Shown here in pieces: positions 718-35,323 of a stretch of 38,163 bases of DNA; within the stretch, counting starts at the first letter, position 1; each line of letters opens with the position of its first letter. The translations under genes and the position numbers were made by a program. Below the pieces are notes generated by a model. The model did not search any database and was not told where the DNA came from. It saw only the letters and a program-made list of their open reading frames with translations. Source of the stretch: an uncultured Campylobacterales bacterium. GTDB taxonomy: Bacteria > Campylobacterota > Campylobacteria > Campylobacterales > Arcobacteraceae. The DNA lies in contig CANLWY010000011.1 in the NCBI GenBank assembly GCA_947494995.1, positions 1 to 38,163 on the forward strand, read 5' to 3'.

Positions 718-2919
718 TTAACCAATAGGGATAGAAATCACAAACTCCGCACCAAAATACTCTTTTTCATTATAAGTAAATTTAGTATTTTTAGCAGATA
801 TTGTTCCTTTCATTCCTTCTACAATTAAACTATGTGTCATAGAAAGACCAAGTCCTGTTCCTTGTGATTTATGTTTGGTAGTAAAATATGGATCAAACAC
901 ATGAGGAAGGGCATCTTCTCTTATACCTCCTGCATTATCTTTAAAAACTATTTTAAGTATCTTATCTTCTAGGTAAGTATCTATAAAAATAAACTTCTCA
1001 CCCTCTTTATCTTCTAAAGCATCTTTTGCATTATTGAGTATATTCATACAACATTGAATTAATTCATTTGGATAACCTTCTATTTCAATACTTGAATCTA
1101 TATTTTTAATTACTTTTAATTCACTATCGTTAAGGATTCCTTCAAGAAGTTTATAAAGTGTATTAAAAGAATCGAGAATATTAAATTTAATCTTTGCCTT
1201 ATCATTTTTTATAAAATTTCTAAAGTCATCGATTGTTTTTGAAAGATATTGTGCATGATTACTAATTCTATCACAGGCTTTAAGTAAATCCTCATCAGGA
1301 AGATCATCAAGCTGTTTTTGTAGTATTATTCCTGAAGAAGCTGACGAAATAGCAGAGAGTGGTTGTCTCCATTGATGTGCAATATTTCCTATCATCTCTC
1401 CCATTGAAGCTAATTTTGCTTGTTCAAATAGTCGTAAATCTTTTTCTCTATTCTTTCTAACTTCATCTTTTACTCTTTTATCCAATTCATCATTTAGCTT
1501 TTTTAACTCTATATTTGCTTTTTTTAGAGAATCTTTACTCTCTAATAAATTCTTAGTTCGTTCATCTAATTGAATAGACATTTTATTAAAGTTTGTACTT
1601 AGTTTATGTATTTCTTCAATTTTTGTTTCAGGATATTCAAGTTTCTTTGATTCACCATCTAAAATTGTTGAAGTTAATTTAGATAAATGATTTATAGGAG
1701 TAGCAATAGTATCTGTGATTTTTGTTGCTTTTTTAAAAATCATATAAAAGAAAATCAAATAAAATAGTGCCATAAAAGCTATTGCAATATATCCTATTAG
1801 ATTAGAGAACTCTTTTAAGTCTAAGGTAGATTCAAAGATCTTATCTTCTTTTATAACAGTAAATAGTATCCATCCTGTTTGCTCTACTTTATTACTTAAT
1901 GCTATATACTTTGAATTATTGATAGATATTTGAGATGTATGTTTATTCTTTTGAATCATATCTTTAAATAGTTTTGCAAATGGAGTCTCATTTTTATAAA
2001 GATTAAAATCCTCAGGTTTCAAAACTGTCTGTGTTATTGCATTTTTGTAGGTATGTTTTTTAAGTTCTTCTAAACCAAGTAACTTTTCAATAGATTCAGG
2101 CATTGCTAAAATCATCCCCTTACTATCAACTAAAAACATTTTTCCCTCAAAAGGAAGCTCTTTTTCAAGTACGTTAGATACTAACTTTTCAATTGTAAAA
2201 TCAATTCCACTTACCCCTTCTAAAAAATCACCATTATAAATTGGAGCAATTGCAGAAATCATCCAACCATTACCAGCTGGGTCTAAATATGCATCTGTCC
2301 AAGAAACACCTTTTTTTGGATTATGTTTTTTATCGGCTAAATAATAAAAATTGTAGTCTTCCATATGAATATGTTCGCCATACTGTTCATATACTTTTTC
2401 TATGTAAGGGTAAAGTCTATTCATATTATCATAACTGTTAAAATATGCTGCTACAATATTTTCATTAAACTCAACAATATTTTTTAATAAAGGATCCATT
2501 GCTTCAGTAAAAATAGCTTTATTTTTTTCTTTCTCAGTTATTATGGTTTTAGAAGAGTAATATAGACTTGCACCTTTTTTAGTCTCTTTATAAAATACAC
2601 CATTTGATGCAACATTAAATGTTGGTTTATTTATAATATTAAAATATTTTGGATTTTCAAAAACTCTTTCATGATCTTTTTGCATAAGTTTTGTTAAGTC
2701 ACTTATTTCTGATAAAATAGTATTTATTTCTTCTACTTCTTTCCCCAGTAATTGTGCATTATTAAAAAGAGTATCATTTTTTAATGTGGATGAAGTTTTT
2801 TCTGAAATATAAGAGTTTATCCCAAAGTATATAACTAATAACATCACTTCAATTATTAAAATAGGCATTAGTGAATATTTTATAAAATGTTTATCTAAAA
2901 TCTTTTTTAAAGCTATCAT
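718..2919 (-). CDS. Cache-HAMP sensor histidine kinase
   Basis: This is a 733-residue membrane sensor kinase. TM1 lies at about 16-36, followed by a periplasmic double-Cache-like region to about 365 and TM2 at about 373-394. A HAMP and coiled-coil region extends to about 500. The phospho-acceptor His is H515 in the IAHQWRQPL H-box. The catalytic domain has an N-box (NILNNAKDALED), a G1 box (FKDNAGGI) and a G2 box (GTGLGLSM). It starts at ATG with GGAGAA upstream. Cache domains usually bind small metabolites such as amino or organic acids; the ligand here is unknown. No response regulator gene is in view, so it is an orphan within this window. The 3' end overlaps the tail of the decayed resolvase on the other strand, and a second resolvase remnant lies upstream, so the gene sits in a rearranged spot. 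Confidence 0.93.
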   Translation of the reverse strand: MIALKKILDKHFIKYSLMPILIIEVMLLVIYFGINSYISEKTSSTLKNDTLFNNAQLLGKEVEEINTILSEISDLTKLMQKDHERVFENPKYFNIINKPTFNVASNGVFYKETKKGASLYYSSKTIITEKEKNKAIFTEAMDPLLKNIVEFNENIVAAYFNSYDNMNRLYPYIEKVYEQYGEHIHMEDYNFYYLADKKHNPKKGVSWTDAYLDPAGNGWMISAIAPIYNGDFLEGVSGIDFTIEKLVSNVLEKELPFEGKMFLVDSKGMILAMPESIEKLLGLEELKKHTYKNAITQTVLKPEDFNLYKNETPFAKLFKDMIQKNKHTSQISINNSKYIALSNKVEQTGWILFTVIKEDKIFESTLDLKEFSNLIGYIAIAFMALFYLIFFYMIFKKATKITDTIATPINHLSKLTSTILDGESKKLEYPETKIEEIHKLSTNFNKMSIQLDERTKNLLESKDSLKKANIELKKLNDELDKRVKDEVRKNREKDLRLFEQAKLASMGEMIGNIAHQWRQPLSAISSASSGIILQKQLDDLPDEDLLKACDRISNHAQYLSKTIDDFRNFIKNDKAKIKFNILDSFNTLYKLLEGILNDSELKVIKNIDSSIEIEGYPNELIQCCMNILNNAKDALEDKEGEKFIFIDTYLEDKILKIVFKDNAGGIREDALPHVFDPYFTTKHKSQGTGLGLSMTHSLIVEGMKGTISAKNTKFTYNEKEYFGAEFVISIPIG

Positions 2920-3101
2920 AATTTCTCCAATAAATATATAAATATAGATAATAATGTAATAAGATTATTAAAAAACAATATTATAATAGTATTATATCAA
3001 TTTTTAAAAACATAACATAGTAATAATATGTAGTCATAGCATATAGTTTATCCTATGTGATCTATCAACAGAAAATAAAACACAAAAATATGAGTTATAA
3101 A

Positions 3102-13121: not shown

Positions 13122-13694
13122 CTATTTTTTTAAATTACTCAAAGCAACAGGAGTTATTCCTAGATATGAAGCCAACATATGTTGCTTGAGTCTATTTTCT
13201 AATTGTGGATAGTTTTCTAAAAATGATTCATATCTCTGTTTTGCATCAAATAATAAAAATTCCCTCTCCCTTGCTTCTTTCGCACAAAAAGCTTTTTCAA
13301 GCAGAATAATCAATAATTTATCCCAACAATTATGATTTTGAGACAATTTTTTAAATTTTTCATAATCAATTACTATAATTGATGAATCTTCCAAAGCTTC
13401 TATTGAAAAATAAGATTCTCTATTTTGAATCAAAGCACTGTAGGCACTTATAAAACTATTTTCAGGGAAAAAACTTTTTGTAAATTCCTTACCTTTTTCA
13501 TGAAGATAAGTAATTCGAAATAAGCCTTTATAAACAAATGCAAAATTATTAGGATAATCTCCTTCTTTAAGAAAATAGTCACCCTTTTTTATATCTTGGA
13601 TATCTGAAATAGAGTAAAGCTTTTCTATCTCTTCTTTAGGAAAATCTGTAATTGTATTTAAATAGTTAAAGAAGCTATTAAATTCTTTACTCAT
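13122..13694 (-). CDS. Crp/Fnr-type cyclic-nucleotide-binding regulator
   Basis: This 190-residue protein has an N-terminal cNMP-binding fold (KKGDYFLKEGDYPNNFAFVYKGLFRIT) and a short C-terminal HTH part (MLASYLGITPVALSNLKK). The reading frame continues upstream to 13766, but that stretch lies inside the GFA gene. MSKEF at 13694 is the better start, giving an 8-base overlap (ATGAGTAA) with the GFA stop. No Fnr-type N-terminal cysteines are seen, so it is not an iron-sulfur oxygen sensor. Similar proteins occur as one-gene regulators beside small metabolic genes. The effector is unknown; adenylate cyclase in this window makes cAMP a possible but unproven ligand. Confidence 0.85.
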   Translation of the reverse strand: MSKEFNSFFNYLNTITDFPKEEIEKLYSISDIQDIKKGDYFLKEGDYPNNFAFVYKGLFRITYLHEKGKEFTKSFFPENSFISAYSALIQNRESYFSIEALEDSSIIVIDYEKFKKLSQNHNCWDKLLIILLEKAFCAKEAREREFLLFDAKQRYESFLENYPQLENRLKQHMLASYLGITPVALSNLKK

Positions 13695-14091
13695 CTTTAG
13701 GTGACCCCTTTTCATAGTGAGGTACATCGGTTGGGATAGTTTCCCATGATGCCTTAGAAGCAACATGAATATGTCTATTTAATTTAATCTTTGGGTCTTC
13801 ATTTAAACACCCCAGAGTAATACCATGTATTTTGCCTTTATAAGTACCACAAAGAGTAGAACCACATTTACTACAAAACTGTAATCCGGATCCATCTTTA
13901 CCATCATATGAAGTTAAAAGCTCTTCTCCTGACACCCATTTGAAATCACTTGGAGTAACAAGTGCATAAGCAGAAGCTTGAGAACTAAATGCTTTTCTAC
14001 AACGTGAACAATGACAAGACCTTGCATCATAAATTTCACCTGTAATAACATATTTAATTTCACCGCAGAAACACTCACCTGTTAATTTCAA
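13687..14091 (-). CDS. GFA-family (Mss4-like) zinc protein
   Basis: This 134-residue protein has the paired zinc-binding cysteines of the GFA/CENP-V fold: CFCG near residues 7-10, CHCSRC near 26-31, and CSKCGS near 73-78. The family includes glutathione-dependent formaldehyde-activating enzyme, but most members are unassigned. The end overlaps the Crp-type regulator gene by 8 bases, so the two are translated together, and the regulator may control this gene. A glutathione-linked reaction should not be assumed. Confidence 0.88.
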   Translation of the reverse strand: MKLTGECFCGEIKYVITGEIYDARSCHCSRCRKAFSSQASAYALVTPSDFKWVSGEELLTSYDGKDGSGLQFCSKCGSTLCGTYKGKIHGITLGCLNEDPKIKLNRHIHVASKASWETIPTDVPHYEKGSPKDE

Positions 14092-15351: not shown

Positions 15352-15840
15352 TTATAAAACCATATACTTACAATTATAAGAATCATCACTTAGTATTCTA
15401 ATCGCAGATTTATCCAACACATCACGATAAAGTATCACATATCTATAAGAAACACTATTTTTTTCTATTTCATTATTCTTAACATAATTGTTTGCATTTG
15501 TATAAAATGTTTCGATATCTTCAGCAGAAATAGACTTTGATTTAGAAGAATTATTACATTTAATTAGCACAGTTTTATCATCTTTAGTACAAATCAAATC
15601 TATATCTGATTCTTTTTTGTCATCATTTGTTTCCGAATATATCACTTTAAAACCTAAACTTTCATACTTCTTCACTGCACGTAATTCTAAAGTCAGACCT
15701 TCTTTTTCATTTTCTTCATGTTTATTTATTTTAGTTCTATTATCTTTGTTATTGATAAATTTCTTAAATAATATGATAGCTATAACAATTGGTACTAAGT
15801 GCCAAATTTTCGATAATGAAGCTAGTATCATCTCACTCAT
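15352..15840 (-). CDS. Membrane-anchored Mrr-like nuclease-fold protein
   Basis: This 162-residue protein has one N-terminal membrane segment (IWHLVPIVIAIILF) and then an Mrr-cat-like PD-(D/E)xK domain: LELRAVKKYESLGFKVIYSE, SDIDLICTKDDKTVLIKCNNSS. The usual hydrophobic-QxK after the Asp is IKC here, so the catalytic Lys is present and the Gln/Glu is replaced by Ile. Family members cut DNA (Mrr type) or are inactive. Membrane anchoring is seen in some DUF2034-like proteins. The role may be defence or envelope-associated DNA cleavage; not determinable here. Confidence 0.65.
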   Translation of the reverse strand: MSEMILASLSKIWHLVPIVIAIILFKKFINNKDNRTKINKHEENEKEGLTLELRAVKKYESLGFKVIYSETNDDKKESDIDLICTKDDKTVLIKCNNSSKSKSISAEDIETFYTNANNYVKNNEIEKNSVSYRYVILYRDVLDKSAIRILSDDSYNCKYMVL

Positions 15841-16596: not shown

Positions 16597-17412
16597 CTAC
16601 CACCAAGTAACAAAAAAACTTTGGGTTTTATTTTCTTTACTATCTTTCAACCAAACAAGAGTAGATTTTTTATGATTTAGTATCAAATCAATTTCATCTA
16701 TTACATCATCAAAAGTTTTCCAAGTTTTATTTGTACTACTATCACAAACCCAATCATATCTTTGTGGTAAAAAGTATTCGTAATCTCTAAACCGCTTCTG
16801 TTTTAGAAACTCTTTATGGTTTATGTAAAAGCCCCTTATGCAAGAGTTATTGATAATAGGTATATCTTTATCCAACAAAGAAATTGGAACATATATATTT
16901 CCTTTAAAACATACTTTTTGTTCAACAGCATTTATATCTATGCCTTCTAAGTATTCCCCAGTTTCATCTTTGTACAATAAAGGAAGTTGTTTATCTTTTA
17001 ATTTTGCTAATTTTTTTGCAAATGAGTCATCTCTGTTTGGACCTATGAATCTATCAATTTCATTTGAAAAAGAGTCATCATACAAATAATACTTATATAT
17101 GTGCTCTATGTGTAAATATTTTTCTTTTCTTTTATCATAAAGTACAAAATCTAGCTCTCCAAGAGTCTCTTTATTATTGATGATTTGTATATTGCTTTTT
17201 ATCAAATCATAATTTTTTGACTCTAGTATGTAGTATTCAAAAAAACGCTCTATTCTTTTACCTAAAGGAAGTTTATCAGGAATGTCAAAATTGTTAAAAT
17301 CAAAGTTTTTTATTTCGTTTATATCTAGTTCAAATTGATTAAGACCATTTATTTCTTTAAATAATGATGGTGTATTTATAAAGCCTAAGAATTGGGGTTT
17401 TAAATTATTCAT
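16597..17412 (-). CDS. DUF1853 family protein
   Basis: This 271-residue protein shows the DUF1853 pattern: LPLGKRIERFFEYYILESKNYDLI, then GELDFVLYDKRKEKYLHIEHIYKYYLY, then FIGPNRDDSFAKKLAKLKDKQLPLL, with a tryptophan-rich end (FFVTWW). The E/D...H-x-E arrangement in the middle resembles a nuclease-like fold, but no function is established. It is on the same strand as the NERD helicase, 56 bases downstream, and may be part of that transcript. A 9-bp inverted repeat (17436-17444 and 17452-17460) lies in the gap. Confidence 0.82.
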   Translation of the reverse strand: MNNLKPQFLGFINTPSLFKEINGLNQFELDINEIKNFDFNNFDIPDKLPLGKRIERFFEYYILESKNYDLIKSNIQIINNKETLGELDFVLYDKRKEKYLHIEHIYKYYLYDDSFSNEIDRFIGPNRDDSFAKKLAKLKDKQLPLLYKDETGEYLEGIDINAVEQKVCFKGNIYVPISLLDKDIPIINNSCIRGFYINHKEFLKQKRFRDYEYFLPQRYDWVCDSSTNKTWKTFDDVIDEIDLILNHKKSTLVWLKDSKENKTQSFFVTWW

Positions 17413-17468: not shown

Positions 17469-19271
17469 CTACCATTTAGTTGGCCAACTATTTCCATATT
17501 CATTATATTTTTCAAGTCTATTAAATATAATCATATTTTCTCTAGTTCTTGTAATTGCTATATACATTAAATAATCTATATTTGGATAATTTTCATTTTC
17601 AGGAGTCACCATAATTACATTTGAAACTTCCCAACCTTTAAAACTATGGATGGTACTCATTTTAAGCCTACTATCTCCCATCCAAAAAGAGTACTTATGA
17701 CTTTTATTTCCTTTTTCTTCTTCAAAAACATCATTTACTTTTATATTTCTTTTTTCAAAAAACTTTTTTGTTTCTATACCATCCTTATGAGTAGAAAGCA
17801 TAATTACAATTTCAGAAGGATGAACTCCTTTCTTTTTTATTAACCATTCAAATGCTTTATATATTTTTTCGAGTGGTAAACTATTTGAAACAAGATTTCT
17901 CCATAAAAGATGTGGATCAAATAAACTTCTATCAACTGCTTCAGGAATAATCCCATTATCAGGTAAAAATTTTTCTGAAAACTTATTTGCTTGTTCTAAA
18001 ATTGGAAGAGGTAACCTATAACTTTGATTTAATTCTCTCCATCTTCCTCTAAACTTTGTGCCTGTCATATTATCTAACCAAGATAATTCTCTAGAATAAA
18101 TATTTTGCCTTTCATCAGCAACAAGTAGAACTTCATCATTAGTGCTTAAAAACATACACAACAAATCATAATAATTTTTCGAGTAATCTTGTCCTTCATC
18201 AATCAAAATAGCATCATATTTTCTATTTTTTCTATTTTTTTTTGCTCGCATTGATTCAATAACTAATGTTGGGATTTCTTCATCAAACAATAAGTCATTA
18301 TCCATAGATTCTGGAAAAGGGATATTGTTTTCATACAAATAGTTTTTACAAAATCCATGAAAATGATTAAATTCAAATAATTCCCATTTAAAATTATATC
18401 TAGCTCTGGAAACAGCATCTCTAATATAATGCCACAAAGTAATATTATATGTCACAATTAAAACTTTTTTACCTTCAGAGGCAAGATTTGCAGCTCTTTG
18501 TGCAATAACAAGTGTTTTTCCACTTCCAGCGGCACCTCTCAACCTTTGATGCTGTCCCATTGAAGAATGAATATGCCTTTTTTGTTCATTTGATAAATTA
18601 ATCTTCATTCCCTGTTCTATTGAATGAAAAGGTGGCCTTAACCAAAACCTTATTTCTTTAGCCCAATAATCATTCATAAAATAACTGAATTTTCTATTTA
18701 TATCAGGAACAATTTGATTTATATTACTAATATCAATTGAATCTTTTCCAAAAATTAAAAAATGCTTTTGTTTAAAATTAGGAATAAAATTTTTTGCCTG
18801 TTTAGTACTAGAATTATGAAAATAAATACCTATTTTAATACTTGCTAATCTTTTTATATCAATATCAATATTCATACCCAATTGAGGCAAATAAAGCATG
18901 AGATTTTTTCTATATCGTTCTACCTGTTTTATAGGATTTGGTATCTTTTGCCACTCCCCTTGATTAATCATAACAAATGATTCTAAATACGATACTCGCT
19001 TATCATTTTTTTCATCAATAAAAAACTTTTCTTTCGAGCTATATATGTTTAAATTCCAATCTTTTACTTCGTATATAACAATACCTATATTAGGATTTAA
19101 AAGAACAATATCTGGCCTATCACCATTTAAATAAGGTTGAATATATATTTCCCACTCTAAAGGTAAATTAATATCAAGAAATTTTGCTAATGTATACTCT
19201 CCATCAGTAAGAGGAGTTATCAAATTATTTAATTGTTCCCAGTTTGGGAATATTCTATTTTTTTCATTCAT
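17469..19271 (-). CDS. NERD-domain nuclease fused to UvrD/Rep-type helicase
   Basis: The 600-residue protein has two parts. Residues 1-130 hold a NERD-like nuclease domain with D54 (GDRPDIVLL) and E68-x-K70 (IVIYEVKDWN). Residues 225-600 form a superfamily 1 helicase: Walker A GAAGSGKT (246-253), DEGQD (358-362), LNQSYRLP, STIHSFKGWE (539-548) and YIAITRTRE (570-578). NERD-helicases act on DNA and are recurrent in phage-defence islands. It follows the HamB-like gene by 31 bases on the same strand, so cotranscription with the defence pair is likely. The start is ATG; AAAGG lies 12 bases before it. Confidence 0.88.
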   Translation of the reverse strand: MNEKNRIFPNWEQLNNLITPLTDGEYTLAKFLDINLPLEWEIYIQPYLNGDRPDIVLLNPNIGIVIYEVKDWNLNIYSSKEKFFIDEKNDKRVSYLESFVMINQGEWQKIPNPIKQVERYRKNLMLYLPQLGMNIDIDIKRLASIKIGIYFHNSSTKQAKNFIPNFKQKHFLIFGKDSIDISNINQIVPDINRKFSYFMNDYWAKEIRFWLRPPFHSIEQGMKINLSNEQKRHIHSSMGQHQRLRGAAGSGKTLVIAQRAANLASEGKKVLIVTYNITLWHYIRDAVSRARYNFKWELFEFNHFHGFCKNYLYENNIPFPESMDNDLLFDEEIPTLVIESMRAKKNRKNRKYDAILIDEGQDYSKNYYDLLCMFLSTNDEVLLVADERQNIYSRELSWLDNMTGTKFRGRWRELNQSYRLPLPILEQANKFSEKFLPDNGIIPEAVDRSLFDPHLLWRNLVSNSLPLEKIYKAFEWLIKKKGVHPSEIVIMLSTHKDGIETKKFFEKRNIKVNDVFEEEKGNKSHKYSFWMGDSRLKMSTIHSFKGWEVSNVIMVTPENENYPNIDYLMYIAITRTRENMIIFNRLEKYNEYGNSWPTKW

Positions 19272-19302
19272 TAAAAGAACTACCTTTAACTGTATCTTCT
19301 CA

Positions 19303-21585
19303 TTATAAATACCATTCTACTAAATTTTTTATATGTTCAGAAGCATTTTTAACATTATCATCAAAGTTGATACTATTTTCATCAATACTAATAACGTATT
19401 TATTAATTTCACCCACATCTTCTGAAGAGAAACCATATCGCATTAAAAGTATATGCCTTTGATTATTAGTTCCAAATCTAAATAACTCAATAATTTTTTT
19501 AGCACGTACATCTTTACTTTCTTCTTCATAAATTTTAAATGCAGCAATAAATTTATCTGTTAATGAAAAAGATAAAACTTTGTCTAAATAATCATATGTA
19601 TCAAAAACAATTGTGTCGTAACTAACACTTTTTGCGAGAACATCTTCTTTATAAATTGAATAAGGTTTTTTAAGTGTACTTTTTGGTAAAGAAACAGCTT
19701 CTTGCGAAAACTTTGCTAAACCTTCATTTTTATTATCTCTATTAGATACATAACTATACCTTGTACCTACTATTTCTCTAAATGTTCTTCCTTGCATAAC
19801 TTGTAGTAATATAGAAATACTTTGCTTAAAAACTGCATTTTCTCCAAGTGACAATTTTCTATTAATACTTGTTTCATAAATTATCTTAAATTCAGTATAT
19901 ATAACTTCTCTATTAGATTCATTTTTATTACCAGAAATATTATCTTTAATTGAATTATCATCCCTATACAAAATATTAAGAATACTTCTTAATGCCAAAA
20001 AAACATTTAATTGAGATAGTCTTTCAACAGCACTTGTTGGTAAGTTTTTATCTTCATCAAATGTATTATTTTTTATTGATTCAATTAATTCTTTAGAATC
20101 TTTATCTATATCATCAATAGGTAAATCTATTATTGATTCTTCTTTCAACTCAAAAAGTTCATTTATTCGGCGTGTAAAAAGTTTAGGATTATTTGTAAAT
20201 ACATACCCAAAATCAAATTTACTATCTTCAGATAATCTACCTGCTCTACCGATTAAGTTTTTAAATGCAAGAGATTTTTCTTGCTCACTTTCTCCAATAT
20301 GTCTATTAGATATCAACCAAACAATATCGAAAGGCATATTTACACCTTGCGCTAATGTACTTGTTGAAAAACATATCTTAGCATGTCCTTCACGAATGAA
20401 ATTTTCAATTAAAAATCTCACCTCAAGTGGTACTGAGCCATGGTGAAGAACTACGCCCTTTTTTAGTAAATTAACAAGATAAGAATCATGTTCATCTTCA
20501 TCGGCACCTAATAAATGTTCAATAGAAGCAATTATTTTTAATGCACTAGGATTATCTATTTCAATAAAATCTTTTATATAAACTTCAAAATCTTTTATAA
20601 AACTTTTATTATAAATTGATGATTTTGATACAAAAATTAAAACACTATGATTTCCATTAAATGCAAAATCACAAAAATTCCCTTCATAAGGAATACAATT
20701 AGATATCGTATATCCTTTATCAATATAAGGAGAGAAATAATAATCTTTTCCATTGTTATGTTTAAAGATACAAACTTTTCCAACAGAGCCAAATGTATAT
20801 GAACGGGAATAGCCTTCTTCTATTGGAAATTTGTGTTTTATTATTTGAGCTTCTGGATTTTTTACAAAAGGATGTGCAAAAATTATCTTTGAAGCATTAA
20901 ATACTTTCTTTATCCTTCGTACCAAAACATCAAAAACTATTCCTCTTGAATCTTCTTCCGACACTTGTGCTTCATCTAAAAAAAATACTTTAATATTTAA
21001 TTCAAATTCTCTATTAAAAAGTTCACGTGCACGTTCAGGAGTAAGAACAAAAATTCGTCTTAATTGTCTAATTAAAAATATGTTATCTACAAAAGATGTG
21101 ATTATTACATTTTTATCATTTTTAAATTTTTTTCTCATAGTAGTTATATATTCAGCAATCAAAGCCCTAGAAGGAACAATAACTACAGCATCACCTTCTT
21201 GCTCAAAAATAAAATCTCTTATTGAATATGATTTACCCGCACTTGTGGGTGCTGATATTGAAATAATTTGTTTGCTTTCAATTGCTCTTCTTATACTAGC
21301 TTGGACAGGTGTTAAATATGCACCAAAATCTTTTTTATGTTGTTCTCCAATGCCAGAAAGAATATAAGAAAACACAGTAGTGGGTTCTTTAATTTTATAA
21401 AAAAGTCCTAATGCTGATATAATTTTTTCTTCATAAGATTCAAAAGTTTTAGGATGAAAAATTTTATAGTAAGTAAATATCTCTAATATTTTTGAATCTT
21501 TAGGACCTTCTTCATGTAGTTCTTTCATTAAAGAAAAAAGATTTTCTTCTGGATATTGATCTTCTATTATTTTTTTTATTTTCAA
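19303..21585 (-). CDS. HamB/AbpB-like DExx helicase
   Basis: This is a 760-residue superfamily 2, Ski2-like helicase. Motifs: LTPVQ (91-95), Walker A SAPTSAGKS (111-119), DEAQ (204-207, instead of DEAH/DEAD), STSTLAQGVNMP (407-418) and NLIGRAGR (443-450). The C-terminal 300 residues are unlike known folds by eye. It starts at TTG in a 4-base overlap (TTGA) with the stop of the HamA-like nuclease gene. In Hachiman and AbpAB systems such helicase-nuclease pairs sense and destroy aberrant DNA during phage infection. At 760 residues it is close to AbpB in size. Whether it is Hachiman or AbpAB proper is not settled. Confidence 0.85.
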   Translation of the reverse strand: MKIKKIIEDQYPEENLFSLMKELHEEGPKDSKILEIFTYYKIFHPKTFESYEEKIISALGLFYKIKEPTTVFSYILSGIGEQHKKDFGAYLTPVQASIRRAIESKQIISISAPTSAGKSYSIRDFIFEQEGDAVVIVPSRALIAEYITTMRKKFKNDKNVIITSFVDNIFLIRQLRRIFVLTPERARELFNREFELNIKVFFLDEAQVSEEDSRGIVFDVLVRRIKKVFNASKIIFAHPFVKNPEAQIIKHKFPIEEGYSRSYTFGSVGKVCIFKHNNGKDYYFSPYIDKGYTISNCIPYEGNFCDFAFNGNHSVLIFVSKSSIYNKSFIKDFEVYIKDFIEIDNPSALKIIASIEHLLGADEDEHDSYLVNLLKKGVVLHHGSVPLEVRFLIENFIREGHAKICFSTSTLAQGVNMPFDIVWLISNRHIGESEQEKSLAFKNLIGRAGRLSEDSKFDFGYVFTNNPKLFTRRINELFELKEESIIDLPIDDIDKDSKELIESIKNNTFDEDKNLPTSAVERLSQLNVFLALRSILNILYRDDNSIKDNISGNKNESNREVIYTEFKIIYETSINRKLSLGENAVFKQSISILLQVMQGRTFREIVGTRYSYVSNRDNKNEGLAKFSQEAVSLPKSTLKKPYSIYKEDVLAKSVSYDTIVFDTYDYLDKVLSFSLTDKFIAAFKIYEEESKDVRAKKIIELFRFGTNNQRHILLMRYGFSSEDVGEINKYVISIDENSINFDDNVKNASEHIKNLVEWYL

Positions 21586-22319
21586 CTTTTTACACCTACT
21601 AAATAAATTGTATTTATTGTTGATAAAGAAATCTTTTCTTTAACACTTTTAACTGCATTAATTAATGCAGTTAAAGGGTCAATTGTATTAACAGAGAAAG
21701 ATGCGATAATTCCAAAATCATCGTTATCTAGATTTTCTATGGCAACGTTATCTACTAAGTTAACTAGATGAACCCTATCTCTTAAATGCTTTTCATCTTT
21801 TATAAAATCATTTGCTTGATTTATTGCATCTGAATATGGGCTATCCAATGAAGAAAACTTTGCTTCTCCAAAATTAATTATTTGATATTTACATACCGTA
21901 TGAAAATCGAAACCTTCATTTTGTTTAACTTGTGGCTTCCATAACTCTGCTATAGGTATCATTTTATGAGAAAATAATTTATTTAATGCTCTTGATGAAC
22001 CTATAGAAACAAGTAGCTCTCCAAAGTCTCCCCCTACCTTACTATTTGTATTCAAAGAAAACTTATCAAAAATTTCAACAAGTTTTAATGCAGTTTCATC
22101 TACTGTTTTGTTATATGCTCGTTTTGAACCTTTGTCCAAATTAAGCATCCATGACTTGTCTTGAACAACTTTTGTTAATACAGAAGCAATTTGTAAAATA
22201 GATTCAACTTCAACTAAACAAACCTTAATATTAATATTTTCATGTAATTTGAACTTTGAAAGCAAACACCTCCATTGTTCATCAAAAGTTTCTTCTTCTT
22301 TTTCTAATTTAATATTCAT
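21582..22319 (-). CDS. HamA/AbpA-like (DUF1837) nuclease
   Basis: This 245-residue protein has the conserved half of DUF1837: GGDFGELLVSIGSS with E101, a segment ending in GFD (D138), and INFGEAKFSSLDS with E152-x-K154. The E/D/ExK set is a PD-(D/E)xK nuclease site, and the ExK pair corresponds to the residues needed for HamA activity in Hachiman. The first 90 residues are not recognised. The gene is first in the operon and overlaps the helicase gene by 4 bases, the order seen in Hachiman (hamA then hamB). The start is ATG with GGAA upstream. Confidence 0.78.
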   Translation of the reverse strand: MNIKLEKEEETFDEQWRCLLSKFKLHENINIKVCLVEVESILQIASVLTKVVQDKSWMLNLDKGSKRAYNKTVDETALKLVEIFDKFSLNTNSKVGGDFGELLVSIGSSRALNKLFSHKMIPIAELWKPQVKQNEGFDFHTVCKYQIINFGEAKFSSLDSPYSDAINQANDFIKDEKHLRDRVHLVNLVDNVAIENLDNDDFGIIASFSVNTIDPLTALINAVKSVKEKISLSTINTIYLVGVKS

Positions 22320-22531: not shown

Positions 22532-24067
22532 CTATTCCCACTCAATTGTTGCTGGTGGCTTTGATGAAATATCATATACTACTCTATTAATTCCATCAAC
22601 TTCGTTGATGATTCTTCTTGAGATAGTTTCTAATACATCATGAGGGATATGTGCAAATGTTGCAGTCATACCATCTGTTGCTTCTACGATTCTTACACAT
22701 ACTGTGTTATCGTATGTTCTGTTATCACCCATTACACCTACAGATTTTACGTTTAGTAGTACTGTAAATGCTTGCCATGTTTTATCATATAATCCTGTAG
22801 CATGAAGAACATCTAACATAATAACATCAGCTTTTCTAAGTAACTCTAAGTCTGGCTTATTTACATCACCCATAACTCTAATAGCAAGTCCTGGTCCAGG
22901 GAAAGGATGACGTCCAATCATATCTTTTGGAAGTCCAAGTTCAAGTCCAAGTAATCTTACTTCATCTTTGAAGATTTCTCTTAATGGCTCGATTAACTCA
23001 AAAGTCATCCAATCAGGAAGACCACCAACATTGTGGTGAGATTTAATTGTTTTAGAAGGTCCTTTAACTGATACAGACTCAATAACATCTGTATAAAGTG
23101 TACCTTGAGCTAAGAACTCAATACCTTCGTGTTTTTTAGCTTCTTTATCAAATACTTCGATAAATGTTTCACCAATGATTTTTCTTTTTGTTTCAGGGTC
23201 TGTAACACCTTCTAATTTTCCTAAGAACTCTTCTGATGCATCAACAGTAATTAACTTAACACCTCTTGATTTGAACATAGCTTCAACTTGTTCTCTTTCA
23301 TTTGCTCTTAAAAGTCCATTATCAACAAATACAGGGATAAGTTGGTCACCGATAGCTTCTGCTAAAAGTGTTGCAACTACAGAAGAATCAACTCCTCCAC
23401 TTACACCACATAGAACTTTTTTGTTCCCTACTTGCTCTTGAACTTTTTTGATTTGTTCTTTTGCAAAAGAACCCATATTCCATGTAGATTCACAGTCACA
23501 AATATATTTTGCAAAGTTTTTAAGAATCTTAGAACCTTGCTCTGAGTGATAAACTTCTGGGTGGAACTGGAATGCATAGATTCTTTCAGCTTCATTTGCT
23601 ATTGCAGCATATGGAGAGTTTTCACTTGTTCCAATTACTTCAAAACCTGAAGCTAATTCATCTACTTTATCTCCATGAGACATCCAAACGATTTGTTCAT
23701 CATTTGTATCTTTAAAGATTTCACACTCTTTTTCAAATTTTAATTTAGCTTTTCCATATTCATGATGATCTGCTGGAATTACAGAACCACCATAAAATTG
23801 AGAAATAAGTTGCATTCCATAACAAATTCCTAAAATAGGAAGACCTAAAGAAAAAATTTGGTCATCTGGGTGATAAGCGTCTTGCGCATAAACAGAAGCA
23901 GGTCCACCTGAAAGGATGATACCTTTTGGAGTTCTAGCTAAGATATCTTCAATTCTTTCATTGTAAGGTACAATTTCAGAATAAACACCAGCTTCTCTTA
24001 GTTTTCTTGCGATAATTTGTGTATATTGACTACCAAAATCTAATACAACTATTGGTACATGTTTCAT
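22532..24067 (-). CDS. guaA: GMP synthase (glutamine-hydrolysing)
   Basis: The 511-residue protein is full length. The N-terminal glutamine amidotransferase has GICYGMQL (nucleophile Cys) and [11 protein letters not shown]. The ATP-pyrophosphatase part begins with the P-loop [15 protein letters not shown] and is followed by the dimerisation domain with [13 protein letters not shown]. It ends in [11 protein letters not shown], the universal GuaA terminus. It converts XMP, ATP and glutamine to GMP in the cytoplasm. AAAGGA precedes the ATG. It is the only gene between two hairpins, so probably monocistronic. Confidence 0.98.
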
Positions 24068-30800: not shown

Positions 30801-33146
30801 TTGAATTATCTAAAAATATTAGGAGCCAGTGGTAGTAAAACTAAGCTTACTGGTACAACCTCCTTTCAGATTTACAAAGACATAATTATTGATGCAGGAA
30901 ATGTAATTAATAGTTTAGGTGAAGAAGCTTTACATATAAACCACATTTTTCTAACACATACACACTCTGACCATATAATCGATTTACCTTTTTTAGTTGA
31001 AAGTTTTTATGAACAAAGAACTCAACCTTTAATAGTATATGGTTCAAAAGAGACTATAGAAACAATAAAAAAACATACTTTTAATGATCATATTTGGCCA
31101 GACTTTTCAAAAATAAACCTATTGGGTAAAGATGAAAAATCTTTAATTTATAAAGAAATTGAACCTGAAGAGATTATAGAACTTGGCCCTTTTGAAATCA
31201 AACCAATTATTGCAAATCATACTAAAGGAGCATATGGATTTACAATAATTAAAGATAAGGAAAATGGCTATGTTATTAGTGGAGACACCTATGAAAATAA
31301 AGCTTTATGGGAAGAAATTAATAGTAATAGAAAAATCAAATCATTAATTATAGAGTGTTCTTTTCCTAGTAGTATGAGCAAGTTAGCATTTGATAGTAAA
31401 CACTTAACTCCAAAGATTTTAAAAGAAGAATTAAAATATTTACAAAGAGATGATATACAAATCTTTATTTATCATATAAAACCATCTTACTATGAAAAAA
31501 TGGTTGAAGAAATTAAAGAATTAAATATTTTATCAAAGGGAGGAAAGGTTTTAAGAGAAGGTGATGTTATTCATATTGATACAGGTGAAATAAAATCAAA
31601 TATGATAAGTGATAACAAGTTTGATCAAATCATGGAAATCAATCTTGAACTATCATCTGAGCTTGATAAGAATAGACTTTTTGAAATGATTTTAACTCTT
31701 ACAAGAGAGCTTACTAATTGTGAAGCAGGAACTTTATACATAAAATCAAAGAATCAAAAACACTTACAATTTAAAGTAGTACAAAATGATCCAATGGATA
31801 TTCATATGGGAGGAACTAAAGATAATCTTACTTGGAATGACTTAAATCTTTATTTAGAAGATGGAAGTCAAAATAAAAGTATGGTAGCTGCAGTCTCTGC
31901 TTTAGAGAATAAAATAGTTAATATTTCTGATGTATACAATGACAAGACTTATAACTTTGAAGGAACTAAAAGATTTGATAAAACAACTGGATATAAATCA
32001 AAATCTATGCTTGTGATTCCATTAATTAACCATGAAAAAGATGTTATAGGTGTTTTACAACTAATAAATAAAACAAAACTTGGAAAAGTTATTCCTTTTG
32101 ATAAAGCAGATGAAAAGATACTAAAAGCCCTTGCTTCTCAAGCAGCTATGGCACTTACAAATACACAACTTATAAATAATCTAGAAGACTTTTTAAACTC
32201 TTTTGTATCAACAATTGCCCATGCGATTGATGCAAAATCATTACATACAGGTAACCACATTGGAAAAGTTGCAAAAATTGCAAAGCTTATTGCAAAAGCT
32301 ATCAATGAGGATAAAACTCTATATGGCAATGTAAAATATACTAAAAATGACTTTAGAGAGATTGAACTTGCAGCATGGATGCATGATATAGGTAAAATAT
32401 CAATGCCTGAATCAATTATTGACAAATCTACTAAACTTCAAGCAATTGTAGATAGAATTGAGATAATTGAACAACGATTTGAAATTATAAAACGTGATTT
32501 AGAAATCTTATTTTTAAAAAATGAAATTGATGGAGAACTTTATAAAGAATCCCTAGAACAAATTGAAGATGATTTGGCTTTTCTAAAAGAGACTAACATA
32601 GGCTCAGAATTTATGGATGATGAAAAAGTTGAAAGAATAAAATTGATTTCAGAATACTCATATGTTTTAAATGGGGGGAAAGTCTCTTTTTTGACTGAAG
32701 ATGAAGTTAAAAACTTATCTATTAGAAAAGGGACATTAACAAAAAAAGAGAAAGAAAAAATGAACAGCCACGCTAATTTGTCATACGACATGTTAGCAAC
32801 TCTACCTTTCCCTAAAAAATATAGTAATGTCCTTAATATAGCAGCAAATCATCATGAAAAACTAAATGGAAAAGGTTATCCTAGAGGTCTTACAGCAGAT
32901 GAGTTAAGCTTAGAAGATAGAATTATGGTATTAGCAGATATTTTTGAAGCATTAACAGCAAGTGATAGACCTTATAAAAAAGGAAAAACTCTATCAGAAG
33001 TTTTTAAAATACTATCATTCATGGCAAAAAATGAAGAGATAGATGCAGAACTTTTAAAATTTTTCCATGATAGTGAAGTATTAGAACAATACTCAAAAGA
33101 GTATTTACATGATTATCAAATAGATAAAAGTGAATTAGATATATAA
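30801..33146 (+). CDS. Metallo-beta-lactamase / GAF / HD-GYP fusion phosphodiesterase
   Basis: This is a 781-residue, three-part signalling protein. Residues 1-250 form a metallo-beta-lactamase fold with HTHSDH (53-58). Residues about 275-455 form a GAF domain. The end is an HD-GYP domain with H482, H528-D529 (MHDIGK) and HHEKLNGKGYP (684-694). About 100 charged, coiled-coil-like residues are inserted between MHDIGKISMPESII and the rest of the HD-GYP domain. HD-GYP domains hydrolyse c-di-GMP; MBL-fold domains of this type can be class-II-like cyclic nucleotide phosphodiesterases. The start is TTG after AAGG. The stop overlaps the cyclase ATG by one base. Confidence 0.9.
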   Translation: MNYLKILGASGSKTKLTGTTSFQIYKDIIIDAGNVINSLGEEALHINHIFLTHTHSDHIIDLPFLVESFYEQRTQPLIVYGSKETIETIKKHTFNDHIWPDFSKINLLGKDEKSLIYKEIEPEEIIELGPFEIKPIIANHTKGAYGFTIIKDKENGYVISGDTYENKALWEEINSNRKIKSLIIECSFPSSMSKLAFDSKHLTPKILKEELKYLQRDDIQIFIYHIKPSYYEKMVEEIKELNILSKGGKVLREGDVIHIDTGEIKSNMISDNKFDQIMEINLELSSELDKNRLFEMILTLTRELTNCEAGTLYIKSKNQKHLQFKVVQNDPMDIHMGGTKDNLTWNDLNLYLEDGSQNKSMVAAVSALENKIVNISDVYNDKTYNFEGTKRFDKTTGYKSKSMLVIPLINHEKDVIGVLQLINKTKLGKVIPFDKADEKILKALASQAAMALTNTQLINNLEDFLNSFVSTIAHAIDAKSLHTGNHIGKVAKIAKLIAKAINEDKTLYGNVKYTKNDFREIELAAWMHDIGKISMPESIIDKSTKLQAIVDRIEIIEQRFEIIKRDLEILFLKNEIDGELYKESLEQIEDDLAFLKETNIGSEFMDDEKVERIKLISEYSYVLNGGKVSFLTEDEVKNLSIRKGTLTKKEKEKMNSHANLSYDMLATLPFPKKYSNVLNIAANHHEKLNGKGYPRGLTADELSLEDRIMVLADIFEALTASDRPYKKGKTLSEVFKILSFMAKNEEIDAELLKFFHDSEVLEQYSKEYLHDYQIDKSELDI

Positions 33147-35323
33147 TGACTACAAAAAAAGCCTTAAAAAAGTTTTTTACTTATGTTTCTATAGCTTTAG
33201 CTTTAGCTTTTAGTATCATTCTATTTTATTTTGTTTCCCCACAAGGACTTGATTCAATAGATAATAGATTAAGAGACTATTTTTTTACATTAAGAGGAGA
33301 TATACCAAATAGTGACTCTGTAATTATTATAGATATTGATGAAAAATCTTTAAAAGAGATAGGTCAATGGCCTTGGTCTAGAAACAAAGTTGCAAAAATA
33401 TTAGAAAACCTTACAAATTCTGGCGTTGGACTTATAGCTTTTGATATTGTTTTTCCAGAAGAAGACAATAGCTCACCCCATAAGATTTTTAAAGAATATG
33501 GTATAGAAAAAGATAATATACCAAATTATGATCTTGAACTAGCAAAAATGGTATCAAATACTCCAACAATTTTGGGATATCAGTTTGAGCTAGAAAAAAA
33601 GGATGTACATCTAGGAAATGAATCTCCACAAATTCCAGCTGTCATTATAGAAAGAGATAAAAAGCTTGGACAAAACTATTTAATAAAAGCAACAGGAACT
33701 ATTCTTAATCTACCAATTATACAAAATACTGGGTACTCAAGTGGGTTTTTTAATAACGTTCCTGACTTATCTGGGATTATTAGAAGTGTTCCTTTAGTAA
33801 TCTCTTATGAGGATATTGTTTACCCTTCTCTTGCTTTAGAAATACTAAGAATTATTACAGATAGTAAAAAGATAGTTATTAACTATGATGAAGCAGGAGT
33901 AATTGATATTTCTCTTAATCAAATAAAGATACCAACAGATAGACATGGTCGTTTTTTGGTAAATTATAGAGGTGCTGAAAAAAACTTTAAATACTTCTCC
34001 GCCGTAGACATTTTAAATAATAAGATTGATTCAAAAGAGTTAGAAGGGAAAATTGCTTTAATAGGAACATCTGCAGCTGGATTACTTGATTTAAGGGCAA
34101 CTCCTTTAGATTTTGTTTTTCCAGGAGTAGAAGTTCACGCCAATGTAATTGATAATATAATCACAGGAGATTTTATATCAAAAGAGTCTAGTGCGGATCT
34201 AAATAATGTTACAATTATAATTGCTCTATCACTTCTGATAATCCTTCTTATTACATATTCACCATTTTGGTTTAATCCAATAATTTCACTTTCATCTATG
34301 ATTGGAATTAGCATTTTTCTTTATCATATGCTCTTTACATATGGAATGGTATTAAATATATTTTTCCCTCTTTTTACAATACTCCTTGCAACTATTCTTG
34401 CAACTTTGATTAACTATTTTTATAAAATAAAACAAGAGGAAGCAATAAAAGAGAAATTTGCTTCAAAAGTATCTAAAGATGTAATGGAAAACCTTTTAAA
34501 AAACATGGATAGCAATGAGTTTCAAGCTATGGAAAAAGAAGTTACAGTATTTTTTAGTGATATTAGAGGCTTTACAAAAATTTCTGAAGAGATGGATAGT
34601 GCGAAAAACCTAATCTCTTATCTAAACCAATATATGGAACCAATGAGTAATATTATTACAAAATATCAAGGAACAATTGATAAGTATATAGGTGATGCTA
34701 TCATGGCATACTGGAATGCGCCTGCAAATGTAGAGAATCATGCAGACAAAGCAGTTCAAGCTTCATTAGAACAAATAAAAGAGTTGAAAAGTTTAAATAA
34801 AAAGCTTAAAGAAGAAAACAAACCTTCAATAGATATAGGGATAGGATTAAACACAGGTCTTGCCGTAGTAGGAGAGATGGGAAGTTCAGGACGAAGTGAC
34901 TATACAGTTATTGGTGATGCCATTAACTTAGGAGCTAGAATAGAGTCTTTATGTAAATATTATGATTCAAAACTAAGTATTTCAAACTTTACAAAAAAAG
35001 CCTTAAAAGATGAATATGTATTTAGGTTTTTAGACTATGTTACAGTAAAAGGAAAAGACAAACCTATAGAGATTTGGCAAGTCCATAAAGTAGGAAAGGC
35101 TAAAAAAGAACAAGAAGAAGAGCTTAAAGACTATCATAAAGCAATAGAACTATATAAAATTTCAAACTTCAATGAAGCTCTAGAAATCTTTGAGACTATT
35201 GAGAACAGTGAATATAAAACAAATAAAAATATTTATAAAATATATATTGAAAGATGTAAAGAGTTTATAAAATATCCACCTAAAAACTTTAATGGTGTTT
35301 ATGAACATAGAACAAAAAGTTAA
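33146..35323 (+). CDS. CHASE2-domain class III adenylate/guanylate cyclase
   Basis: The 725-residue protein has an N-terminal TM, a periplasmic CHASE2 sensor domain (about 40-345, beginning with LDSIDNRLRDYFFTLRG), three TM segments (about 350-425) and a cytoplasmic class III cyclase. Metal-binding aspartates are D472 (FFSDIRGFTKIS) and D517 (DKYIGDAIMAYW). DYTVIGDAINLGARIE follows, with the Lys-Asp/Thr pattern expected for ATP rather than GTP. It probably makes cAMP. The start overlaps the HD-GYP gene stop (TAATG). A short TPR-like tail is seen at the C-terminus. Confidence 0.92.
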   Translation: MTTKKALKKFFTYVSIALALAFSIILFYFVSPQGLDSIDNRLRDYFFTLRGDIPNSDSVIIIDIDEKSLKEIGQWPWSRNKVAKILENLTNSGVGLIAFDIVFPEEDNSSPHKIFKEYGIEKDNIPNYDLELAKMVSNTPTILGYQFELEKKDVHLGNESPQIPAVIIERDKKLGQNYLIKATGTILNLPIIQNTGYSSGFFNNVPDLSGIIRSVPLVISYEDIVYPSLALEILRIITDSKKIVINYDEAGVIDISLNQIKIPTDRHGRFLVNYRGAEKNFKYFSAVDILNNKIDSKELEGKIALIGTSAAGLLDLRATPLDFVFPGVEVHANVIDNIITGDFISKESSADLNNVTIIIALSLLIILLITYSPFWFNPIISLSSMIGISIFLYHMLFTYGMVLNIFFPLFTILLATILATLINYFYKIKQEEAIKEKFASKVSKDVMENLLKNMDSNEFQAMEKEVTVFFSDIRGFTKISEEMDSAKNLISYLNQYMEPMSNIITKYQGTIDKYIGDAIMAYWNAPANVENHADKAVQASLEQIKELKSLNKKLKEENKPSIDIGIGLNTGLAVVGEMGSSGRSDYTVIGDAINLGARIESLCKYYDSKLSISNFTKKALKDEYVFRFLDYVTVKGKDKPIEIWQVHKVGKAKKEQEEELKDYHKAIELYKISNFNEALEIFETIENSEYKTNKNIYKIYIERCKEFIKYPPKNFNGVYEHRTKS

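Follow-up and report, generated by a model that had tools for sequence, protein, structure and literature searches.

Hachiman comprises a HamA nuclease and a HamB helicase sensing DNA integrity, and D-E(X)K has been published as the catalytic motif of HamA; in AbpA, the HamA site is inactive and a Cap4-like domain is present at the N-terminus (PMC12278908, in the parts of this article available to us). A three-gene Hachiman, HamMAB, includes a protease-HamA fusion and the MBL-fold nuclease HamM, encoded upstream, and nearly all protease-HamA fusions have lost the D-GEXK motif, as the accessible sections of PMC12799240 describe it. The accessible portion of PMC10952713 lists NERD under "Nhi-like" and Mokosh type I systems. 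In a literature search of partial coverage, no paper was found on the function of the PADLOC family C3a187 or on a combination of HamAB with a NERD-UvrD protein, and the available NERD passages of PMC12839542, PMC12458937, PMC10910872 and PMC12409351 contain no mention of such a combination.

The locus considered here belongs to a stretch of 38,163 nucleotides (the window) from an uncultured Campylobacterales bacterium (contig CANLWY010000011.1). Three of its genes encode a HamA-like nuclease, a HamB helicase and a fusion of a NERD nuclease with a UvrD-like helicase. In our opinion, these genes very probably represent two independent defence modules, namely hamAB and the NERD-UvrD gene, in one co-directional block between guaA and a DUF1853 gene.

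Gene layout and insertion site

All three open reading frames were found in the window sequence on the minus strand, with their catalytic motifs intact (Table 1). The order on this strand is guaA, hairpin, hamA, hamB, NERD-UvrD gene, DUF1853 gene and pseudouridine synthase gene. The initial annotation was correct in its description of the layout: the nuclease residues E101, D138, E152 and K154 are at the positions claimed, the Ski2-like helicase gene overlaps the nuclease gene by 4 bases (21582-21585), and the NERD-UvrD fusion follows on the same strand after the 31-base gap. A terminator separating the transcripts, named there as an argument against joint action, was searched for on the minus strand, and the consensus scan picked up nothing resembling one between the three genes. 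The region contains 48 promoter-like matches against 44.1 expected, about the number given by chance. Perhaps, the two modules share a transcript.

Table 1. Features of the defence block and its borders (positions in the window)
Feature	Position	Strand	Remarks
hamA-like gene, 245 aa, DUF1837-type nuclease	21582-22319	minus	D138, E152-x-K154, E101 in GE motif; PADLOC HamA 3e-4
hamB, Ski2-like SF2 helicase, 760 aa, TTG start	19303-21585	minus	APTSAGKS, DEAQ and GRAGR motifs; PADLOC HamB
NERD nuclease-UvrD-like SF1 helicase fusion, 600 aa, PADLOC family C3a187	17469-19271	minus	
Gap between hamB and the NERD gene, 31 bases	19272-19302	minus	Without terminator-like site on the minus strand
Terminator-like hairpin between guaA and hamA	22491-22460	minus	Consensus scan
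guaA, border of the variable insertion site	22532-24067	minus	
DUF1853 gene, bordering the insertion site on the other side; resident, outside the defence genes	16597-17412	minus	

The site occupied by the block, bounded by guaA and the DUF1853 gene, is variable. In one relative (G007), these two genes are separated by ~0.6 kb containing one 89-aa ORF, and in two others (G010 and G002), the same interval consists of ~15 and ~10 kb of other genes; the interval after guaA differs among the 11 relatives read (loci L100-L107 and L110-L112). Since its contents differ among relatives, the site is a place where genes come and go, and the interval after guaA behaves as an insertion hotspot. The three genes are alone in it, which fits either a single acquisition or serial ones. 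A palindrome close to the start of DUF1853 was also searched for as a DNA pattern, and the window gave no match even when 3 mismatches were allowed.

Several other genes of the window were recorded in passing. A 162-aa protein with a hydrophobic N-terminus is encoded in the same gene strip (15352-15840, minus strand) and has a weak match to the restriction-endonuclease family Mrr_cat_2 (E 0.006, below the cut-off). On the plus strand, at 30801-35323, the gene of an MBL-GAF-HD protein is directly followed by that of a CHASE2-nucleotide cyclase, and a cNMP-binding protein is encoded at 13122-13766.

The hamAB pair and its clade

The profile search proposed in the initial annotation gave a clear result for the helicase, which is matched by PADLOC HamB with E=3.7e-58, and a weak one for the nuclease. 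A profile of the HamB clade reaches HamB (8vx9, 4.1e-17) and AbpB (8zue, 2.1e-10) in the PDB, both ranking behind Pol theta-type and other Ski2-like helicases. In the HamB tree, the window protein groups with that of relative G361 (98/96) within a four-member clade (100/100), which stands on a long branch of 2.41 changes per column. The sister pair from G361 is 58.6% (HamA) and 63.8% (HamB) identical to the window proteins; the corresponding values are 41% and 57% for the pair of locus L028, whose contig ends inside HamB, 36% and 38% for G493, and 31% and 37% for G009. Adjacency of hamA and hamB in the same order as in the window was found in these four relatives. The clade is rare: HamA matches occur in 2 genomes out of 200 relatives (the own one and G009), HamB at 1e-15 in five out of the same 200, and clade HamB at E<=1e-60 in 3 out of 398 genomes of the order (own, G361 and G493) and in 1 out of 44 genomes of the family of G361.

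The identity of the first gene product needs more discussion, because it could also be an unrelated restriction-like nuclease that took the place of HamA beside HamB. No Pfam family was found for it up to E=1, and PADLOC gave one weak HamA match (E=3e-4) covering residues 83-173, i.e., the motif region, and none up to E=0.1 in 4 out of 4 relatives of the clade. Profile-profile comparison with other HamA-position proteins using hhalign had poor statistics (E 0.033, probability 1.5%), and a sequence search of the PDB gave no convincing relative, the best being an alkaline phosphatase with E 0.75. A structure model from a two-row alignment (mean pLDDT 42.8) was too poor for use. The weak statistics of the searches favour the replacement by an unrelated enzyme, against which stand the GE, D and GEAK motifs, aligned by hhalign, with the same poor statistics, in register with those of HamA-position proteins. 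Residues D138, E152 and K154 agree with D-E(X)K as published (PMC12278908, accessible part), and these, together with E101, are invariant in all five clade members aligned. Moreover, hamA is directly upstream of hamB, overlapping or abutting it, in 5 out of 5 members, the hamB start of L028 being uncertain. We consider the unrelated nuclease unlikely. Membership in HamA is supported by motif, register and gene order more than by profile, and the first two genes are best assigned, from their sequences, to a putative Hachiman system of a divergent clade with short HamA proteins (234-257 aa). Hence, the Hachiman-type reading of the initial annotation was retained, with HamB placed by its profile.

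PADLOC HamA models miss 4 out of 4 relatives of this deep short-HamA Hachiman clade; therefore, tools requiring both HamA and HamB may overlook it. The L028 pair (1481-3035 of this locus) comes from a metagenomic contig whose bin bears the label Hyphomonadaceae; it is one locus from a contig scan with a two-row HamB alignment and two very narrow patterns, which is no survey. Two genes beside this pair may be AbiEi/AbiEii-like.

By analogy with characterised Hachiman (PMC12278908, in the sections available), HamB would scan DNA and respond to damaged or free-ended molecules by releasing or activating the HamA nuclease, which would then degrade DNA in the infected cell. Antiphage activity of the locus may be expected on these grounds.

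The NERD-UvrD gene and its distribution

The third protein is matched in Pfam by NERD (7e-10) and UvrD-helicase (6.3e-18) and in PADLOC by C3a187 "NERD+UvrD" (PDLC01087) with E=1.2e-96 over model positions 7-554 of 559. In an alignment of eight sequences, neither its NERD residues D54, E68 and K70 nor the Walker residues vary. At 1e-20, NERD-UvrD is present in 8 out of 200 relatives; the closest protein (71%) is that of G094, with which the window protein groups in the NERD tree (100/99). In G094, the NERD gene follows a co-directional WYL regulator gene at a distance of 21 bases and is itself followed by a HisKin-conflict ankyrin gene. Judging from its domains, the SF1 helicase would engage DNA and the N-terminal NERD domain (PD-(D/E)xK) would cut it; this is a predicted single-gene module that moves independently and probably works by itself.

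Other known systems were tried for this gene. Gabija was rejected: the best GajB match (1.3e-17) was partial and far below that of C3a187, and no GajA was found among the seven window proteins scanned with PADLOC. No Nhi model was among the 25 of 35 PADLOC rows listed for the protein.

The order NERD-UvrD gene, HisKin-conflict ankyrin gene, iREC/response-regulator gene was observed in both G094 and G462 (L017:8927-15875 and L109:8150-15225). This arrangement of HisKin-conflict and iREC was seen in 2 out of 9 wider NERD loci, with NERD genes from distant branches of the tree. Neighbouring genes in the ten plasmid regions read include transposases, CRISPR and restriction or other defence genes.

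It was suggested in the initial annotation that the NERD-UvrD helicase is a third component and that all three proteins act together, with absence of this gene beside most close homologues of the pair named as the contrary observation. The neighbourhood survey does not uphold this suggestion: the gene is absent beside the pair in all three uncut close homologues (G361, G009 and G493), and L028 is cut inside HamB and hence stands outside this count. Searches of the G009 and G493 genomes with NERD-UvrD gave no match at E<=1e-5, and the sole match in G361, away from the pair, was a 28% UvrD piece (E=3.7e-6); the same query finds its match in the window's own genome, which validates it. Reciprocally, the HamB-clade alignment, validated by its matches in other genomes, found nothing at E<=1e-5 in the genome of G094, and HamAB is not located beside the NERD gene there. 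Thus, the nearest relative of each module is without the other module, and the nearest kin of the two belong to different organisms, since HamB pairs with G361 and NERD with G094.

The sample of the phylum gave a similar picture. HamB was matched in 34 out of 397 genomes, 30 of them yielding loci; among 11 match rows that yielded no locus, one (G493 C4) was retrieved separately, four were second gene pieces and six were left out. HamA was found beside HamB in 25 of the 30 loci (24 with the first HamA profile alone), the profiles of this tally including the window's own HamA and proteins of the counted loci. NERD was found beside HamB in 1/30, the window itself. C3a187 was matched in 26/397 genomes, giving 30 loci, four of which repeat a gene and two of which (L049 and L050) have no NERD ORF by the NERD profile; HamB adjoins in one, again the window. 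These counts refer to flanks of ~0.3-1.5 kb downstream of HamB and ~0.7-1.5 kb on each side of NERD, some of them cut by contig ends, so that a distant partner or a short stub would be missed in both sets of 30 loci. In ten wider HamB loci (mostly with 7-10 kb flanks; L156 cut on one side), no NERD was found anywhere, and none of the nine wider NERD loci had HamA or HamB within 3 kb; 7/10 and 7/9 of these loci, respectively, come from the same genomes as the main sets, and in L156, L022 and L023 the contig ends close to the gene. All genome counts are samples, and the searches share genomes.

Mobile elements were also searched. None of 10 NERD ORFs on nine plasmid loci had HamAB within 3 kb. 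Outside this ORF-based tally, the NERD gene of a Deinococcus plasmid is flanked on one side by a large helicase gene and on the other, after two small genes, by a type III CRISPR cassette, with no HamAB in the annotation shown. Among the matches listed, a single plasmid accession, NZ_CP010886.1, has both NERD and HamB, ~16 kb apart; the accessions compared were those of 60 of 66 NERD records and fewer than 100 of 122 HamB records (40 best plus 60 spread, overlapping). A tblastn search of plasmids with HamA gave no match, and no relatives were found in viral contigs scanned with HamA, NERD and the NERD and HamB alignments. Phages gave one partial NERD match.

Reciprocal absence in the genomes sampled shows that the modules move separately.

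Interpretation of the block and comparison with known systems

The explanation by two modules has to account for the 31-base gap without a terminator-like site and for the interval between guaA and the DUF1853 gene being filled as by a single acquired unit, both of which speak against it. On these grounds, the locus may be read as a three-gene Hachiman variant, where NERD-UvrD would work with HamAB, for example, resecting ends for HamB or serving as a second effector after HamAB has been triggered. Besides the common strand and the isolation of the three genes in one site, this reading can refer to HamMAB, a Hachiman with the added nuclease HamM; recruitment of a further nuclease has precedent, because this three-gene system has been published (PMC12799240, accessible sections). 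It is quite unlikely in our estimation, given that NERD is missing beside every uncut close pair and has no strong match in those genomes, that the closest NERD protein occurs without HamAB, and that the single HamB locus of thirty with NERD is the window. A rare three-gene lineage could be missed, since close homologues of the pair are so few. A young defence unit, formed by recent capture of a free-living NERD-UvrD nuclease-helicase by a Hachiman pair and with all the proteins acting on the same DNA ends, is highly improbable; if it were real, it would place an SF2 helicase with its nuclease and an SF1 helicase with another under one promoter. What speaks for co-operation in this strain is adjacency and only adjacency. 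The comparison with relatives guards against giving a system name to an adjacency seen once.

A stronger form of the two-module explanation, compatible with it, is that the NERD gene was inserted downstream of hamAB in a site of gene turnover, taking from hamAB no more than a promoter for its expression. The different genes after guaA in 11 relatives and the lack of any excess of promoter-like matches agree with this, as does the close spacing of the G094 gene to the co-directional WYL regulator gene ahead of it. On the other side, an internal promoter within hamB is possible, because promoter-like matches, at chance level, occur there. We give even chances to such operonic hitch-hiking, and the odds appear equally balanced for its corollary that protection by the two modules would be additive at most. 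The preferred reading is that of two modules, presumably without a functional link and perhaps co-transcribed.

Among the known systems, HamMAB offers a parallel in that Hachiman was able to gain a further nuclease gene (PMC12799240, in the sections available). There, the extra nuclease is upstream and of the MBL fold, whereas the extra gene of the window is downstream and encodes NERD-UvrD, and the HamA motif is kept. HamMAB itself was rejected for this locus: guaA is located upstream, and HamA has no room for a protease and retains its motif. A layout like that of HamMAB was observed on a Vibrio plasmid (L152:34146-39079), where an MBL-fold gene, a further gene and HamB stand in a row.

AbpAB (PMC10732053, accessible part) resembles the window in the combination of a nuclease with a Ski2-like helicase, and its AbpB is reached by the clade profile (8zue). 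It was rejected, as the window HamA, of 245 aa, has no N-terminal fusion and its motif is intact. Characterised Hachiman shares with the window the adjacent genes of a nuclease and a Ski2-like helicase and D-E(X)K in HamA; it differs in that the HamA of the window is short and barely matched by HamA profiles and its HamB clade is long-branched. The third gene has its counterpart in C3a187 "NERD+UvrD", to which the window protein is a near full-length match. The pair is nearer to Hachiman than to AbpAB, because its HamA is short, carries no N-terminal fusion and keeps D...E-x-K.
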